A stretch of DNA of 46,054 nt from Stentor roeselii (lineage: Eukaryota > Ciliophora > Heterotrichea > Heterotrichida > Stentoridae). The notes under the pieces are model-generated. The model searched no databases. It was given only the letters and a program-made list of their open reading frames with translations, and was not told the DNA's origin. The stretch is from NCBI GenBank assembly GCA_006503475.1, contig RSEH01000327.1, forward strand, positions 1-46,054, in the 5' to 3' direction. Positions 28,830-35,013 of this stretch are shown in pieces. Made by a program: the position numbers and the translations under genes. Every line of letters starts with the position of its first letter. Position 1 is the stretch's first letter.

Positions 28830-29936
28830 TTATTGTTTTAAACTTTCGATTTTTGTTTTCAATTCTCTCATCGCTTTTTTATTTCGAAGTTTGCTGTAAA
28901 GGTCAAAAGAATTGTTTAGGTATTCAAGAGCTTCTGAAAATCGGTTTAACATGGAAAAAATCGACCCGATGATTTTCAGGTCTTTTGCATGATGACTTGA
29001 ATTCAGGCCATAAAGACCCTTGTCGATTTCAAGTACTTCGAAACACTCAGAAAGGGCTTCTTCATATTTTTCTTCTTCTGTGAGGATTATACATTTCATT
29101 CTTTTTACTTTTGCTGTGGTTTTATGAATGTTTCCATGAAGATTTTCACTCAACTTTTCGCATTTATTTAAAATTTCAAGAGATTCTTGGAGTCTTTTCT
29201 GCTTGCGAAGAAGACTTACGAGTTTTAAACCTGTTGCTGTTGAAAAGTCGCCGTTGTAGTTAAGGTCTATTGAGAGGTTAAACATCCGGGAAAGCATGTC
29301 TGAAGCGTTTTTTGAGTCTTTTTTTAGTTTGTATACCTCGGCGAGGTTGAAGTAAATTTCTAACATTATTTCATGTCGCTTGCCGTGGATCGTCTCGTAG
29401 ATCTCCCAGACAGATGTCAGCAAGTCAAGAGCTTTTTCGAAGTCTTTACATTTTGAATAGACTTTACCGAGTTCTAGCATTATTGGTGCCTGATCAGCGT
29501 GGCCTTCGCCTACTAATTTTTTGCTCATTTTTAGTGCTTTTTCGAGTAGACTGATGGAATCTTCTGTCATTTCAGTGCTATGCAAACACTTAGCAAGAAG
29601 AGTCAACAAGACAATATGATAAGCTTTAGACTCAGGGTGACTATTAAAAAGATTTCCATTCAACCTCAAAGCACACTTAGCATGATCAACAGCCTGCTCG
29701 AAATAATCCATTTTCAAGTAACTCTCAGCAAGTTTCGCATGAGCTTCAACCATAAGAAACACAGGACGGTTATGAACATTGACTAAAATTTTAAACAAGG
29801 CAAACTGGTGAGCTCGAACTTGAATAACTCCTTCAAAGTCTTGATTTTCTTCTCTTTCCCTTGCATAATCACTGAGTAATCTAGCTTTATCCTCAAGTTC
29901 TCCAAACATTTTGCCATTCATTCCAGCATTTTCCAT
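28830..29936 (-). CDS. TPR protein, kinesin-light-chain-like
   Basis: Predicted 368 residues, built of about eight tetratricopeptide-type helix pairs (LAESYLKMDYFEQAVDHAKC, LLAKCLHSTEMTEDSISLLE, LGKVYSKCKDFEKALDLLTS, NLAEVYKLKKDSKNASDMLS, IGSIFSMLNRFSEALEYLNN). The roughly 42-residue spacing and the acidic-aromatic positions resemble kinesin light chain TPRs more than the canonical 34-residue unit. It is likely a scaffold for protein partners. It opens divergently from the STPGR gene, 14 nt away, and the neighbouring genes suggest a cytoskeletal or ciliary role (inference). Confidence 0.85.
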   Translation of the reverse strand: MENAGMNGKMFGELEDKARLLSDYAREREENQDFEGVIQVRAHQFALFKILVNVHNRPVFLMVEAHAKLAESYLKMDYFEQAVDHAKCALRLNGNLFNSHPESKAYHIVLLTLLAKCLHSTEMTEDSISLLEKALKMSKKLVGEGHADQAPIMLELGKVYSKCKDFEKALDLLTSVWEIYETIHGKRHEIMLEIYFNLAEVYKLKKDSKNASDMLSRMFNLSIDLNYNGDFSTATGLKLVSLLRKQKRLQESLEILNKCEKLSENLHGNIHKTTAKVKRMKCIILTEEEKYEEALSECFEVLEIDKGLYGLNSSHHAKDLKIIGSIFSMLNRFSEALEYLNNSFDLYSKLRNKKAMRELKTKIESLKQ

Positions 29937-29950
29937 AATATCATTGAAAA
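29937..29950. promoter_or_regulatory. 14-nt spacer between divergent starts
   Basis: Only ATATCATTGAAAAA lies between the start codons of the TPR and STPGR genes. No complete promoter fits, so control elements must overlap the coding sequences. Confidence 0.4.
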
Positions 29951-30694
29951 ATGTCAGAACTGCAGCAAATGTGTCTTGAAACAGGACCAGGAAGCTATGA
30001 AGTCCAAGACTCTTTAGGCCGTTTGTCTTACAAGCACTACAACCCTCCTCGTGTCGCTATTGCGAGAGCAAAAAAAACAAATAAGCTCTTTTTAAGTGTT
30101 GAACTTAACAAGCAGTTTTCAGGACTTGAGTCTCCAGGAGTCAATACTTATTCGCCGAATCATTTGAAGGTACTTGAAAAAACTCCTTCTGCTGTTTTTG
30201 GGACTTCCAAGAGAAACATGACTTATTTAACTCCTCTCATGGGAAGATCTCCTGGACCTGTTTATGATAGCTCTCTTGGGTATTACCCGAAAGCTGGAGT
30301 TTCTTTTACTAAGGCTAGAAGAAATTCGAGCTTAGCTAGCTATGAACCTGCTTCTCCGGCACCTTGGGATTATAATCCTCAGTTTCCCATGACTAAAGTT
30401 CCTGTAGTTATTTTTCGGGCAGCTTTTGATAAAGTTAAGCAGAAAACTATAACCCCAGGACCAGGTAGTTACAACGTTTCACTTTCACCCAAACGGGTAT
30501 CAGGTGCATACGTGAGTAAAATCGGCAGAACCGTAATCGAGAGTCAAAAAGCTCCAGGTCCAGGAACATACGACCCAGAAACATCACTTCACTCCTCCTC
30601 CTTTAAAATCGGTCAGGGTAAAAGAAACATCGACCCAAGAATATGTAATTTTTATCTAGACGCCAAGCCTCACGAGCTATACCGAGACTATTGA
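29951..30694 (+). CDS. STPGR (sperm-tail PG-rich repeat) protein, ODF3/CIMAP-like
   Basis: Predicted 247 residues with repeated proline-glycine motifs: TGPGSYEVQDS near the start, ESPGVNTYSP, RSPGPVYDSS, TPGPGSYNVSL and APGPGTYDPETS. These are sperm-tail PG-rich (SHIPPO) repeats, found in ODF3/CIMAP proteins that sit along axonemal microtubules, including their inner surface. The remainder is basic and Ser/Thr-rich (for example VSFTKARRNS). The stop is followed by the next gene's ATG 11 nt later, and the start is 14 nt from the divergent TPR gene. Confidence 0.9.
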   Translation: MSELQQMCLETGPGSYEVQDSLGRLSYKHYNPPRVAIARAKKTNKLFLSVELNKQFSGLESPGVNTYSPNHLKVLEKTPSAVFGTSKRNMTYLTPLMGRSPGPVYDSSLGYYPKAGVSFTKARRNSSLASYEPASPAPWDYNPQFPMTKVPVVIFRAAFDKVKQKTITPGPGSYNVSLSPKRVSGAYVSKIGRTVIESQKAPGPGTYDPETSLHSSSFKIGQGKRNIDPRICNFYLDAKPHELYRDY

Positions 30695-30705
30695 TAATAA
30701 TTAAC

Positions 30706-32217
30706 ATGGATGACGTCTTCGATGACAACTCGACTCCTTCCTTCAGCACAGTCCCATGTCCGGACTTCACCAACCAATCAGCCAAATCAGTGCGAATAGC
30801 TTTTCCTTACACCCAAGAAGCGAAAAGATTCTCTTTCACAGGTTCAATCGAACTAGAATCAGCACTTGAAGACTTCATCACTCCTCTTCAAGCACTTCCA
30901 AGTCAGCACTTTTTCGACTATTTCTCGAAAAGATATCAAAGAGAAAGAATCCATGACTTGCTTGGACAGATCTTTTGTTACCCTATCGATGAAGTGAAAA
31001 GAAAGAAAGTTGAAGCGAATCCTTACACCTTGTTGAAAAGTCCTCCTCCTGCATTTAATTATAAAGGAATTTGCAGAATGGCGAATATTTTGAAGTTATT
31101 TCCTGAGATTCTTGAAAAAAACTTCATGATGCCGAATTACGAGTTTTTAGTACTTGGTGATCAGGGAGGTTTTTCTGAGTTTATCGTGAATTCTTATGTT
31201 AACAAGTACTATGAAGAGCCTTTGGGACATTCTTTGTTCCCGAAGGTTTTGTTTAAGGTGCCTGGAGTCACTCTTTACCCAGAAGGCGATATTTCTTTTC
31301 AATCAATTAAAAAAGTTTCAAATGAAATCTTGGAAAATCAAGGAGAAAGTCCTTTAATGCTTATTATCAGCGACTTAAGCTGGAAAGAGTCAGATGCTGA
31401 CCTTGAAGAAAAATACATGAATCTTTACTTAAGTTATTCCATTTTCCTCTCAGTTAAACTACTTGCCAAAGGAGGTAACCTGGTCCAAAAGCTTTACAAT
31501 ACCAGCCACCCAGCGACAATTGAATTAATTTACTTGGCATCTTCATTATTCACCAGCATTTCCTTATTTAAACCTCTGAACTCCTCTCCACATTCCTCAG
31601 TAACTTTCAAATAGTGCCGAGTCCTCATCGCTCTTGACTTCAAAGGAACTCCCGAAGCCGAATTCTTCGAAAAACTTGCTTCAATGCTGGAAAAACTTCT
31701 GCAACTTGAAAAGAACCTGGACCATGTCCTTGCTTTTTCAAAGGTCATAAGCAACACCCAGTTCCAGGATTACATCATGAGTCAAAACTCGACAATTGCA
31801 GAAACTCAAATTACTGCACTTCAAAGAATCTTAGAATTTATCAAAGGTGATGCGAAAAAACTTAAAATTAACAAAGATGAAGTCGCTGAAAAGTGCCTGG
31901 TTAATTGGAAACTTAAGGAAGTCACTGAAGAAGAGCAGAAGGAAAGCTTTAGAGAAGAATTTCAACCTGAAGTGCCAAAGGATACGGTTAGGGTTATTAA
32001 AAGTGAAATGCCGATTGATATCTCTGGAATTGCAAATATTGTTAATAGGGGAAGCTCAAGTGTTAAGATGAAGAGCTTTGCAAGGAAACAACCTGAGCAA
32101 ATTGCACCTGAAAGGTCGTTGGACCTTCAGAAACAATTCAAACCGGAAGAGCAGAAAGCTGTTAGTGATCTCAGATTCTTTAGAGCGAAAGGATCTAAGA
32201 AACAAGTGAAAAAGTAG
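30706..32217 (+). CDS. CMTR1-like cap 2'-O-methyltransferase family protein, probably inactive; one intron
   Basis: 498 residues after removing the 15-nt intron at 31600-31614. From memory of human CMTR1, the segments line up: RMANI at 124-128 with KMANM; LGDQGGFSEFI (150-160) with CAGPGGFSEYV; ISDLSW with MADGGF (Asp223); GGNLVQK with GGHFICK (Lys262); SLFKPLNSSPHSSCRV across the intron with LFKPITSRPANSERYV; and a C-terminal helix DYIMSQNSTIAETQITAL with DYMIRSN...QIKAL. The K-D-K-E catalytic tetrad reads Arg124-Asp223-Lys262-Cys299 and the SAM motif has lost its Asp and central Gly. I expect no or altered catalysis. I start at ATG 30706; the frame reaches 30691 by TTG. It is 20 nt before the polo-like gene. 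Confidence 0.82.
31600..31614 (+). other. 15-nt intron in the CMTR1-like gene
   Basis: GTAACTTTCAAATAG, phase 0, ends in the in-frame TAG. Both sides keep the CMTR1-like alignment across the junction. Confidence 0.9.
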
Positions 32218-32237
32218 GGATAGTAGTTATACATATA

Positions 32238-33773
32238 ATGGAAGAATATATTATTGAAGAAGCTTCGGCCAAGTCAGGAAGTGAAAAGTCACTAAAAAAA
32301 TACCTTAAAGGTAAACCTCTAAACTCAGACAATGAAATCAAATACTTAGAAGTCACTTCTCCTGACAAAAAGACTTTCGCAGCCAAGATCCTACCAAAGT
32401 CCAAATTAAGAAACGGGAAGTTAAGACAAAGTTTAAAGTCCGAAATACGAATCCAATCAAAACTAATCCATCCAAACATCGTCAAATTCGAGAAATTCAT
32501 CGAAGACAGTGAAAACATTTACATTTTCTACGAGTTATGCATAAACAAAAGTCTTCTAGACCTACTAAAAAGAAGAAAAAGACTGACCGAGCTCGAAGCG
32601 AACTGTTACCTTTCACAATTAATTTCAGGTCTAAAATATCTTCACTCCTCAAAAGTGATCCACCGAGATCTCCGTCTAAACAAACTCCTTCTCAGTGAAA
32701 ACCTCGAACTAAAAATCTCTGACTTCTCTAAAGCCACCCGGGTAGAATACGAAGGCGAAAGGAAAAAATCCGTCTGTGGTGTGCCGAACTTTATGGCTCC
32801 AGAAGTGATCGACGGGTCTCATTCCTACGAAGCGGACGTCTGGTCTTTAGGAATTTTCCTTTACACTGTCCTGATCGGCCAGCCCCCTTTTCACTCAGTT
32901 AGTTCTCAAGAGACTTATTCAAAGATAAAATCAGGAAAAGTCTCTTTTCCAGTCCCTTTATCAGACCCTGCAAAAGCCTTGATTGAAAAAATTTTAGTTG
33001 TGGACTGGACTTTAAGACCTACTTTAGATGAAATCTTGGCTTCTGAATTCATGACTGGAATGGAAAACGTTCCGAAACTTATGAACCTTGCTACTCTTGC
33101 TGCTCCACCTCAAGAAACAAGAGGAAATAAAAAAAGACGCTCGACTCACATGATTTCTGATGGAATCTCTCCTGAACAGTTCAAGGTGAAAATGACTGGA
33201 AATGTTTTTGAAGGACATGGCATGGACGGCGAGGTGTTTGTTAAAAGGTGGATTGATTACACCTGGAAATACGGACTTGCTTATCTCTTGTCTAATGGCA
33301 ACTGTGGGGTGAGTTTCATTGATTCCACAAGAATTATTCTTAACGTTTCAACTGGACAGATATTTTACATGGACAAGGTCACGATTCATGAACATTCAAT
33401 CGCAAGTTACCCTGAAGAGTTAAAGAAAAAAGTAGCACTTTTACAGTATTTAAAGAATTATCTCGAGACTGATACTGAGAAGTCTGTTGGAGAAAATGAT
33501 ATTCGACTTCCGGTTTATGTTAAAAAATGGATGCTTACTCGACATGCTCTTATTTTTAGACTTTCAAGTAGACTGGTGCAGGTCAATTTTTTAGATAAGT
33601 CTGAACTGAGTTTGAACTGCGACAACAAAATCGTCTCTTTTTCAAACCGGAAAGGAGAAAAGATTCAGATGACTTTAGCTAAAGCAGTGCAAGTGAACAA
33701 CCCGGAGATACTAAGAAGGTTAAAATACACAAGAGACGCCATTCAGCATATGCTTAAGTTCAAACAATCTTGA
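32238..33773 (+). CDS. Polo-like kinase family protein, degenerate kinase (pseudokinase) with two polo boxes
   Basis: 511 residues with the layout of PLK1: kinase about 20-273, polo box 1 about 333-412, polo box 2 about 425-505. Kept: the VAIK-type lysine (FAAK, Lys50), HRD (142-144), the DFG aspartate (Asp162), APE (187-189), an activation-loop Ser178 at the PLK1 Thr210 site, and Trp338 at the PLK1 Trp414 site. Lost: the glycine loop (KGKPLNSDN has no GxGxxG); the catalytic-loop Lys and Asn (HRDLRLNK in place of HRDLKLGN, so Arg146 and Lys149); and the DFG glycine (DFS). In polo box 2 the PLK1 His538/Lys540 pair aligns with Lys454/Glu456. I infer a polo-like pseudokinase with altered phosphopeptide docking. 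TGA is the true stop, since the reading would otherwise run into the next gene's leader. Confidence 0.88.
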   Translation: MEEYIIEEASAKSGSEKSLKKYLKGKPLNSDNEIKYLEVTSPDKKTFAAKILPKSKLRNGKLRQSLKSEIRIQSKLIHPNIVKFEKFIEDSENIYIFYELCINKSLLDLLKRRKRLTELEANCYLSQLISGLKYLHSSKVIHRDLRLNKLLLSENLELKISDFSKATRVEYEGERKKSVCGVPNFMAPEVIDGSHSYEADVWSLGIFLYTVLIGQPPFHSVSSQETYSKIKSGKVSFPVPLSDPAKALIEKILVVDWTLRPTLDEILASEFMTGMENVPKLMNLATLAAPPQETRGNKKRRSTHMISDGISPEQFKVKMTGNVFEGHGMDGEVFVKRWIDYTWKYGLAYLLSNGNCGVSFIDSTRIILNVSTGQIFYMDKVTIHEHSIASYPEELKKKVALLQYLKNYLETDTEKSVGENDIRLPVYVKKWMLTRHALIFRLSSRLVQVNFLDKSELSLNCDNKIVSFSNRKGEKIQMTLAKAVQVNNPEILRRLKYTRDAIQHMLKFKQS

Positions 33774-33810
33774 GTAGTTTGTAATAAAGCCATTCTTATA
33801 ACTATTCAAA

Positions 33811-35013
33811 ATGTCAATAGAGTCAATAGTGCGAACGTGTAACAAACAAGCAATGGAATGTCTCTGCTCAAATAATTACTCAGAATGTTACCGTCTCTTG
33901 AAAAAAGCAGAAGAAATCATCAGGTCTCCGAACTACCCAACAAACTCGAAGTTATCAGCAGTAACCTGGAATAATCTTGGATGTTATTATAAAAGAATTA
34001 ATTCTTTCGATCTCGCCCTTGAATACCTGACCAAAGCTCTCAAAGACGACTCAGAAGGCGACCAAGTGACTCTCGCCGGGACTCATTTGAATCTTTTAGC
34101 AGTTCTTTCACAACTTAAAGACCACAAACAAGCTCTTTATCATGGAGTCCAAGCTGTCAAACTGTTAAAAACCTCCAACAATTTCCCGACACTTCTTCTT
34201 GCCTTGCAGCATGTGGGCGATGAGTATCTTCAGTTAGGAGATGCAGATAAAGCGTATTCGACTTATATTCACGCCTTGTCTATTGCTGAAGAACAGTTTG
34301 GCAATAATTCAAACTATTGTCTTCAAATTCATGATAAAATCGCTGCACTTAGTCGACAAGAGAAGAAGTTTTACTTTGAAAAACTGAATAAAAGAGCTAC
34401 TAGACAGATTTTTGATGGGTTTAGGAATTATTCAGTCCTACCGAAAATCACTGCTCCTATTAAACCTAGCAAAAGCTTTGAAAGAAGCCCACCTGTTAGG
34501 CAGAGGATTGGGAAAAAGATGAGAAGTGATAGGGTTTATATGAAAACTGCTCCTGGAAAAGCTAAAGTTTTTTTAAGTAATTTGAAAAAAGAACCGAATG
34601 ATGAGAGTTACTCGAAATTAGAGGAAAAAATTAGTGTCTTGCAAAATCAACTTGAAAACTTTGAGATTAGGTATAAGAAACTTGAACAGTTTGCTAGGGC
34701 TAAAACTCAAACTAGAGGATTTCGCAAAAAGAAAAAACTTACTATTGAAGAAAGTGCTGTGATTATACAGAAGTGGTGGAGAGGATATCGAGACAGAAAA
34801 GACTTTCGAGTCTATCGCCGTAAAATGACTCACGAGCGTGCAAAACGAGCAATAGAAGAACTGGAAATTCTTCGTAAAGTAGCAATCAACGAAGATCTCT
34901 ACGCAGCTGAGCCTCGTCCAAAGACGAACGCTCCAGAGTTATACAGGACAAACTACATTAGAAGCACCGGAACTGCTCACATGGGTCAACGATTTTCGGT
35001 GCATCCCTGCTAA
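33811..35013 (+). CDS. TPR protein with IQ motif
   Basis: Predicted 400 residues. Residues about 1-175 carry four or five TPR-like helix pairs (WNNLGCYYKRINSFDLALEY, THLNLLAVLSQLKDHKQALY, LQHVGDEYLQLGDADKAYST). A basic low-complexity region (about 190-255) and a short coiled coil follow (YSKLEEKISVLQNQLENFEI). At about 313-330 is VIIQKWWRGYRDRKDF, a good calmodulin-binding IQ motif. Similar TPR-coiled coil-IQ proteins are common in ciliates and often locate to cilia or basal bodies, but this is inference. The start is 37 nt after the polo-like stop and the stop is 13 nt before the next ATG. Confidence 0.82.
   Translation: MSIESIVRTCNKQAMECLCSNNYSECYRLLKKAEEIIRSPNYPTNSKLSAVTWNNLGCYYKRINSFDLALEYLTKALKDDSEGDQVTLAGTHLNLLAVLSQLKDHKQALYHGVQAVKLLKTSNNFPTLLLALQHVGDEYLQLGDADKAYSTYIHALSIAEEQFGNNSNYCLQIHDKIAALSRQEKKFYFEKLNKRATRQIFDGFRNYSVLPKITAPIKPSKSFERSPPVRQRIGKKMRSDRVYMKTAPGKAKVFLSNLKKEPNDESYSKLEEKISVLQNQLENFEIRYKKLEQFARAKTQTRGFRKKKKLTIEESAVIIQKWWRGYRDRKDFRVYRRKMTHERAKRAIEELEILRKVAINEDLYAAEPRPKTNAPELYRTNYIRSTGTAHMGQRFSVHPC

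Follow-up and report, generated by a model that had tools for sequence, protein, structure and literature searches.

The window, a 46,054-nucleotide stretch of the Stentor roeselii genome, encodes a PLK1-type Polo-like kinase whose kinase half is, to judge from its residues, probably dead or nearly so. On alignment with its relatives, the losses of this protein (511 aa; 32238..33773, + strand; hereafter the window PLK) are concentrated at positions that handle ATP, metal and substrate, and the core of the kinase fold is kept. We regard a loss of physiological catalysis as likely and, with rather less assurance, would read the protein as an enzyme turned docking or competitor paralogue that has an altered ATP site and acts by binding.

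Results

The window PLK is read in the standard code from a single, uninterrupted frame of 511 codons on contig C261 of the assembly (44.4 Mb, 522 contigs). Heterotrichs such as Stentor use the standard code and have 15-nt introns; TAA, TAG and TGA all serve as stops of PLK ORFs in the Stentor roeselii genome, which fits that code. The ORF starts 20 bases past the stop of its upstream neighbour, an FtsJ-like methyltransferase gene (30706-32217) interrupted by a 15-nt GTAA..TAG intron at 31600-31614. The frame of this neighbour is continuous once the 15-nt GT..AG stretch is taken out, and a plain ORF list displays the gene as two ORFs. The region 28833-35013 is a tight gene cluster in which the window PLK lies among TPR, SHIPPO-repeat and TPR/IQ proteins, with intergenic gaps of only 20 and 37 bases on either side of its gene.

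Pfam assigned a Pkinase domain (187.2 bits) and two POLO_box stretches to the protein. The kinase domain (residues 17-292; 32286..33113, + strand) aligns with that of PLK1 (E 3.8e-76), and polo boxes 1 and 2 lie at 33267..33434 and 33537..33707 on the same strand (57 and 41.4 bits, respectively). The closest solved chains are PLK1 kinase domains for the kinase half (3.8e-76), with weaker matches to PLK2/PLK3 (~1e-63), PLK4 (~1e-45) and Aurora (~1e-41), and a PLK polo-box domain (PBD) for the C-terminal half (3.8e-25). Both marks of a PLK1-type Polo-like kinase, a PLK-like N-terminal kinase domain and two C-terminal polo boxes, are thus present, and the Pfam and solved-chain matches agree with the original prediction that PLK1 domain order and both polo boxes are kept. 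A PLK4-type identity was rejected: the sole match in the genome to the PLK4-type polo box PF18190 is on another contig (C145:216763-216999) and falls below the cut-off (19.6 of 26.4 bits). Judged by the PF18190 model alone, there is no clear PLK4 in this genome. A single-sequence AlphaFold model of the window PLK was unusable (pLDDT 34.5). One stretch of the viral contigs matched a pattern but does not code for a relative.

A six-frame search of the genome with PF00659, in which all 58 candidates were scored, gave 58 matches; two below the cut-off were dropped, and the other 56 fall two each in 28 ORFs, including the window PLK. A kinase domain is present in all 28. A kinase-domain search of the genome scored the best 84 of 1184 candidates and may miss PLKs that lack polo boxes. 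The alignment comprised the 28 polo-box kinases (the window PLK and 27 paralogues from the same genome), human PLK1 and C410b, and motif columns are given in PLK1 numbering. C410b has no polo boxes and is left out of all counts of 27 and 28. It is a 339-residue tandem copy (L039 about 1456-2516; C410:53455-54515, + strand) that is 72% identical to C410, shorter and degenerate, with DFG replaced by GFE, the helix-C Glu by Gln and no Pro in CGTPNY; a second polo-box copy was not found in the 8-kb C410 locus with the C410 PBD as query (E 1e-3).

In the full-length tree, the window PLK (branch 2.12) and PLK1 form long unresolved branches beside the other PLKs; the long branches of the window PLK, C256 and PLK1 meet, and no starred set includes the window PLK. 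Its nearest rows differ between the kinase-only and PBD-only trees. The window PLK shares a one-residue gap at 533 with all 27 paralogues and Glu540 with 26 of them, and its mean PBD identity is 0.405 to the paralogues versus 0.326 to PLK1. We therefore assigned it to the ciliate family.

Inspection of the ATP site revealed the sequence NSDNEI (32322..32339, + strand, as are all motifs below) in place of the glycine-rich loop GKGGFA (PLK1 60-65). The glycine loop is gone, as originally predicted; since PLK1 and the 27 paralogues already have Ala at the third Gly of GxGxxG, the loss concerns G60, G62 and G63. Shortly after the loop, Tyr (32343..32345) replaces the Val or Cys at PLK1 C67, a position that we take to be the roof of the adenine pocket and part of the catalytic spine. 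The catalytic loop reads HRDLRLNK (32661..32684), in which the Asp is kept and Lys178Arg, Gly180Asn and a replacement of the metal-binding Asn (Asn181Lys) are found. DFS stands for DFG (32721..32729), and the activation/P+1 segment SVCGV (32769..32783) features T210S and T214V. The alignment bears out the predicted Lys at the metal-binding Asn and DFS, as well as retention of the ATP Lys (K82; 32385..32387), the HRD Asp (D176) and the DFG Asp (D194); the helix-C Glu (E101; 32442..32444) is also kept. The Arg of HRDLR is present, but K178R is conservative. Src-family kinases read HRDLRAAN, with Arg at the same position, and Lys178Arg was dropped as a clear loss.

Fourteen of the 58 kinase-domain columns that are invariant in the 27 paralogues are changed in the window PLK (G60N, G62D, F64E, A65I, K97S, H105Q, K178R, N181K, G196S, L197K, T210S, T214V, Y217F and P315N). 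When each PLK was scored in this leave-one-out manner at the columns invariant in the others, the next highest were C256 (4/62) and C71 and C124 (3/61 each), and the median was 0. Less strict columns are changed as well (G63N, V/C67Y, L130Y, G180N, G193S), and V/C67Y, L130Y, G180N, G193S, L197K, T210S, T214V and Y217F go beyond the changes that had been predicted. None of the 27 paralogues has the ATP-site losses. Invariant columns that are retained include L59, A80, K82, E101, H174, R175, D176 and D194, as well as A219-P220-E221, D233, W235 and R293. Functional elements (glycine loop, AxK/helix C, hinge, catalytic loop, DFG, T-loop/P+1) account for 11 changes in 27 columns versus 3 in 31 elsewhere (Fisher one-sided p 0.0066, a descriptive value because columns were grouped after the motif table had been seen). 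At near-invariant columns, counted for seven of the 28 proteins, the window PLK is changed at 13/31 in the N-lobe, 9/24 in the catalytic/activation region, 2/22 in the remaining C-lobe and 4/28 in the PBD; the six other PLKs have at most 4, 3, 3 and 4 changes in these regions, except for the PBD of C256 (16/30). The T-loop Ser and the basic stretch GERKKS are kept in the window PLK, and an upstream kinase could still modify this Ser.

A missed intron, a frameshift or an assembly error could in principle conceal normal motifs, an explanation that we consider extremely unlikely and for which no supporting point was found. The other two frames contain no glycine loop in the first 360 bases of the ORF. 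Six 15-nt GT..AG stretches occur in the ORF (only this length was scanned); none lies before 32868, which puts them all clear of the altered glycine loop, catalytic loop and DFG. The sole GTA-type stretch (33432) codes for VALLQ, residues that align with the paralogues. Moreover, 16 of the 17 codons examined are unlike every codon of the 27 paralogues at that position, which amounts to at least 29 base differences with the frame kept. A hidden 15-nt intron or frameshift at the lost motifs was therefore rejected, and no intact GxGxxG or Asn is concealed in this way.

Whether the window PLK is called a pseudokinase, as originally predicted, depends on the definition. The strict one given in PMC4718504 calls for loss of the VAIK Lys, HRD Asp or DFG Asp, and all three are present (K82, D176, D194); the broad one, also given there, calls for missing conserved motifs and includes the window PLK, in which the glycine loop, Asn181 and the DFG Gly are replaced. 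The same source counts six key residues, among them Gly52, Lys72, Asp166, Asn171 and Asp184; with the sixth taken to be Glu91, two of the six are gone (Gly52 to Asp, Asn171 to Lys). An intact glycine loop together with VAIK is described as the best past predictor of activity (PMC4718504). VRK3, in which the loop is severely degenerate with Asp at Gly52 while the Lys-Glu pair is intact, is reported to bind no nucleotide (PMC4718504, PMC3014569). In ROP2, Glu and Tyr are described in the glycine loop and a clash with ATP is predicted for a Tyr in beta 2; the Glu and Tyr of the window PLK resemble these. STRAD-alpha is reported to bind ATP despite loop changes and ILK to tolerate VRK3-like substitutions, so inactivity of the window PLK is not certain.

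In an alternative reading, the window PLK is a low-activity or atypical kinase, in which Lys82, Asp176, Asp194 and Arg178 would permit slow and perhaps metal-independent transfer. None of the three classical catalytic residues is lost, nor is the helix-C Glu, and Src kinases use Arg at the Lys178 position. CASK would be the model for this chemistry, being described as active without cations and without Asp184 (PMC4718504). However, the glycine loop and VAIK of CASK are intact, the very combination that best predicted activity in the past (PMC4718504), whereas the loop of the window PLK has no glycine, Tyr occupies the pocket roof, and Asn181, Gly196 and Thr214 are changed. We consider residual transfer of this kind doubtful.

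The kinase domain has also diverged outside these motifs. In a kinase-only tree, the tip branch of the window PLK is 1.47 versus 0.56 for the next longest, and in a PBD-only tree it is 1.36, fourth of 27 after C432, C273 and C71 (both trees leave out C256, C410b and PLK1; owing to the long distances, these rate comparisons are rough). A tree without the functional columns still gives a kinase branch of 1.18 versus 0.66, thus indicating that the acceleration extends beyond the motifs. Mean identity to the other PLKs (reference set without C256 and the window PLK itself) is the lowest of 28 for the kinase domain (0.484) and fifth lowest of 28 for the PBD (the same 0.405), and the PBD/kinase ratio of 0.84 is the highest of 28 (next 0.77). 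When identity was compared in 20-residue bins, the window PLK was lower than all other PLKs in 5 of the 13 that cover the kinase domain and in none of the 10 of the PBD, although in 9 of these 10 it lay under the family median. On these comparisons, the kinase domain lies beyond the range of the family, and the PBD falls within it, at its fast end.

This pattern could also reflect a relaxed, decaying duplicate on its way to becoming a pseudogene and without retained function. The long branch of the window PLK in the full-length tree, the place of its PBD among the faster ones and its short linker (41 residues versus 56-94 in 26 of the 27 others and 25 in C256) are compatible with decay, and with C410b the genome does contain a degenerate, shorter tandem copy of another PLK. 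In contrast, all 511 codons are open despite long divergence, GC by codon position is similar to that of the paralogues, and the losses are clustered in catalytic elements while the fold core and the polo boxes are kept. When neutral change of one paralogue was simulated, none of 1000 copies was still open with 10% or more of the sites redrawn, which argues that selection kept the window PLK for most of its history, though not necessarily now. Decay without function is thus, in our estimate, improbable.

The original prediction also held that the window PLK had lost the phosphopeptide pincer of polo box 2. In PLK1, Trp414, Leu490, His538 and Lys540 are reported to dominate phosphopeptide binding (PMC3214037). 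The window PLK has Trp (33249..33251), Thr, Lys and Glu at these positions, with Lys-Ser-Glu at 538-540 (33597..33605); the Trp alone is kept of the four, and by these residues the PBD is not of the phosphopeptide-binding PLK1/Cdc5 kind. The predicted Lys and Glu are thus present, but they are no special loss, as Lys540 is missing from every one of the 28 PLKs and His538 from 26 of them. At position 540 (L031-L057 and 33603-33605 in the window), 27 PLKs have Glu and one (C256) has Gln; Lys occurs in none. Fourteen PLKs have Lys at position 538, four have Arg, two have His and eight a non-basic residue, and 27 of the 28 have Trp at position 414. Pincer loss was therefore rejected as a mark of this protein. 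Glu540 belongs to a tied group at ranks 7 to 19 of the 167 PBD columns scored for conservation (columns with more than three gaps were dropped), and it looks constrained rather than decayed. None of the five invariant PBD columns is changed in the window PLK. C256 (L052; C256:30394-31722, - strand) is the opposite of the window PLK, with intact kinase motifs and a degenerate PBD in which 11 of the 16 columns invariant in the others are changed and Trp414 is Phe; its 25-residue linker is the shortest. Given the family-wide Glu for Lys540, docking by the PLKs of this genome probably does not proceed via a PLK1-type phosphate clasp.

Discussion

Of what had been predicted, an impaired kinase retained for its docking function has the best support, given the ATP-site losses, the divergence of the kinase domain and a PBD within the family range; the special loss of the pincer is the part that did not hold. 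A mechanism is proposed where one PLK1-type paralogue in a large ciliate PLK family would have shifted from enzyme to binding protein. The Asp equivalent to Gly52, the Glu and Ile of the loop and the Tyr at the adenine roof would hinder ATP, and Lys for the metal-binding Asn, DFS and Val for the P+1 Thr would disable the remaining function. The window PLK may then work via its polo-box domain and an inert kinase surface, and if docking sites or partners are common to it and the active PLKs, it could compete with, tether or regulate them. A link to basal-body arrays, which the original prediction had raised, is conjecture. We think it unlikely, though conceivable, that the family PBDs, with a conserved acidic residue for Lys540, engage a basic or unphosphorylated ligand and that the protein is a dead decoy with the same altered docking code as its 27 sister PLKs, whose dose it sets at cortical or ciliary sites.

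If the docking reading is correct, a giant regenerating ciliate has an inert PLK and possibly a built-in competitor within a 28-member family. The family-wide Glu at the pincer Lys would further mean that PBD docking in this lineage need not presuppose a phosphorylated primer. In the human kinome, about 10% of the members are classified as pseudokinases (PMC4718504), so one or two among 29 PLKs would be no surprise. A literature search of titles and abstract openings found no description of a ciliate PLK pseudokinase; a Stentor kinome preprint (Reiff and Marshall 2017, cited in PMC9371601) may include the gene, and the terms pseudokinase, polo and PLK are all absent from PMC9882060.

Among known systems, the Tetrahymena protein JanA is likewise a ciliate Polo kinase and is reported to act in cortical patterning (PMC12151471), which indicates that ciliate PLKs can matter in this process. 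PBDs that likewise lack phosphopeptide-binding residues are described for TbPLK of T. brucei and kinetoplastid KKT2/KKT3/KKT20 (PMC7653357, PMC4821238). TbPLK has an active kinase and a PBD with none of the four residues (PMC7653357), whereas 27 of the 28 PLKs here still have Trp414.

For the kinase half, the best reading by analogy is convergence with PLK5, with an ATP site blocked in the manner of VRK3. VRK3 belongs to another kinase family and is not known to have polo boxes. The two proteins are alike in a degenerate glycine loop, Asp at Gly52, bulky pocket residues and a Lys-Glu pair (PMC4718504, PMC3014569); the failure to bind nucleotide is reported as measured for VRK3, whereas for the window PLK it is predicted from the residues. 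Non-catalytic Polo-family members are already known in vertebrate PLK5, which keeps its polo-box part, as the window PLK does, and is described as a pseudokinase that is full-length in mouse (PMC6930252). Human PLK5 is reported to be kinase-deficient (PMC3386946), with the kinase domain described as absent or truncated (PMC9102930, PMC8027324), whereas the window PLK has the whole domain with an altered ATP site. The two would have arisen separately: the gap at 533 and Glu540 link the window PLK to its paralogues, whereas the tree, which covered the paralogues and PLK1, leaves it on a long branch of uncertain position. The window PLK would act non-catalytically much as PLK5 does and, if so, Polo kinases have turned non-catalytic at least twice, once in vertebrate PLK5 and once in this protein.
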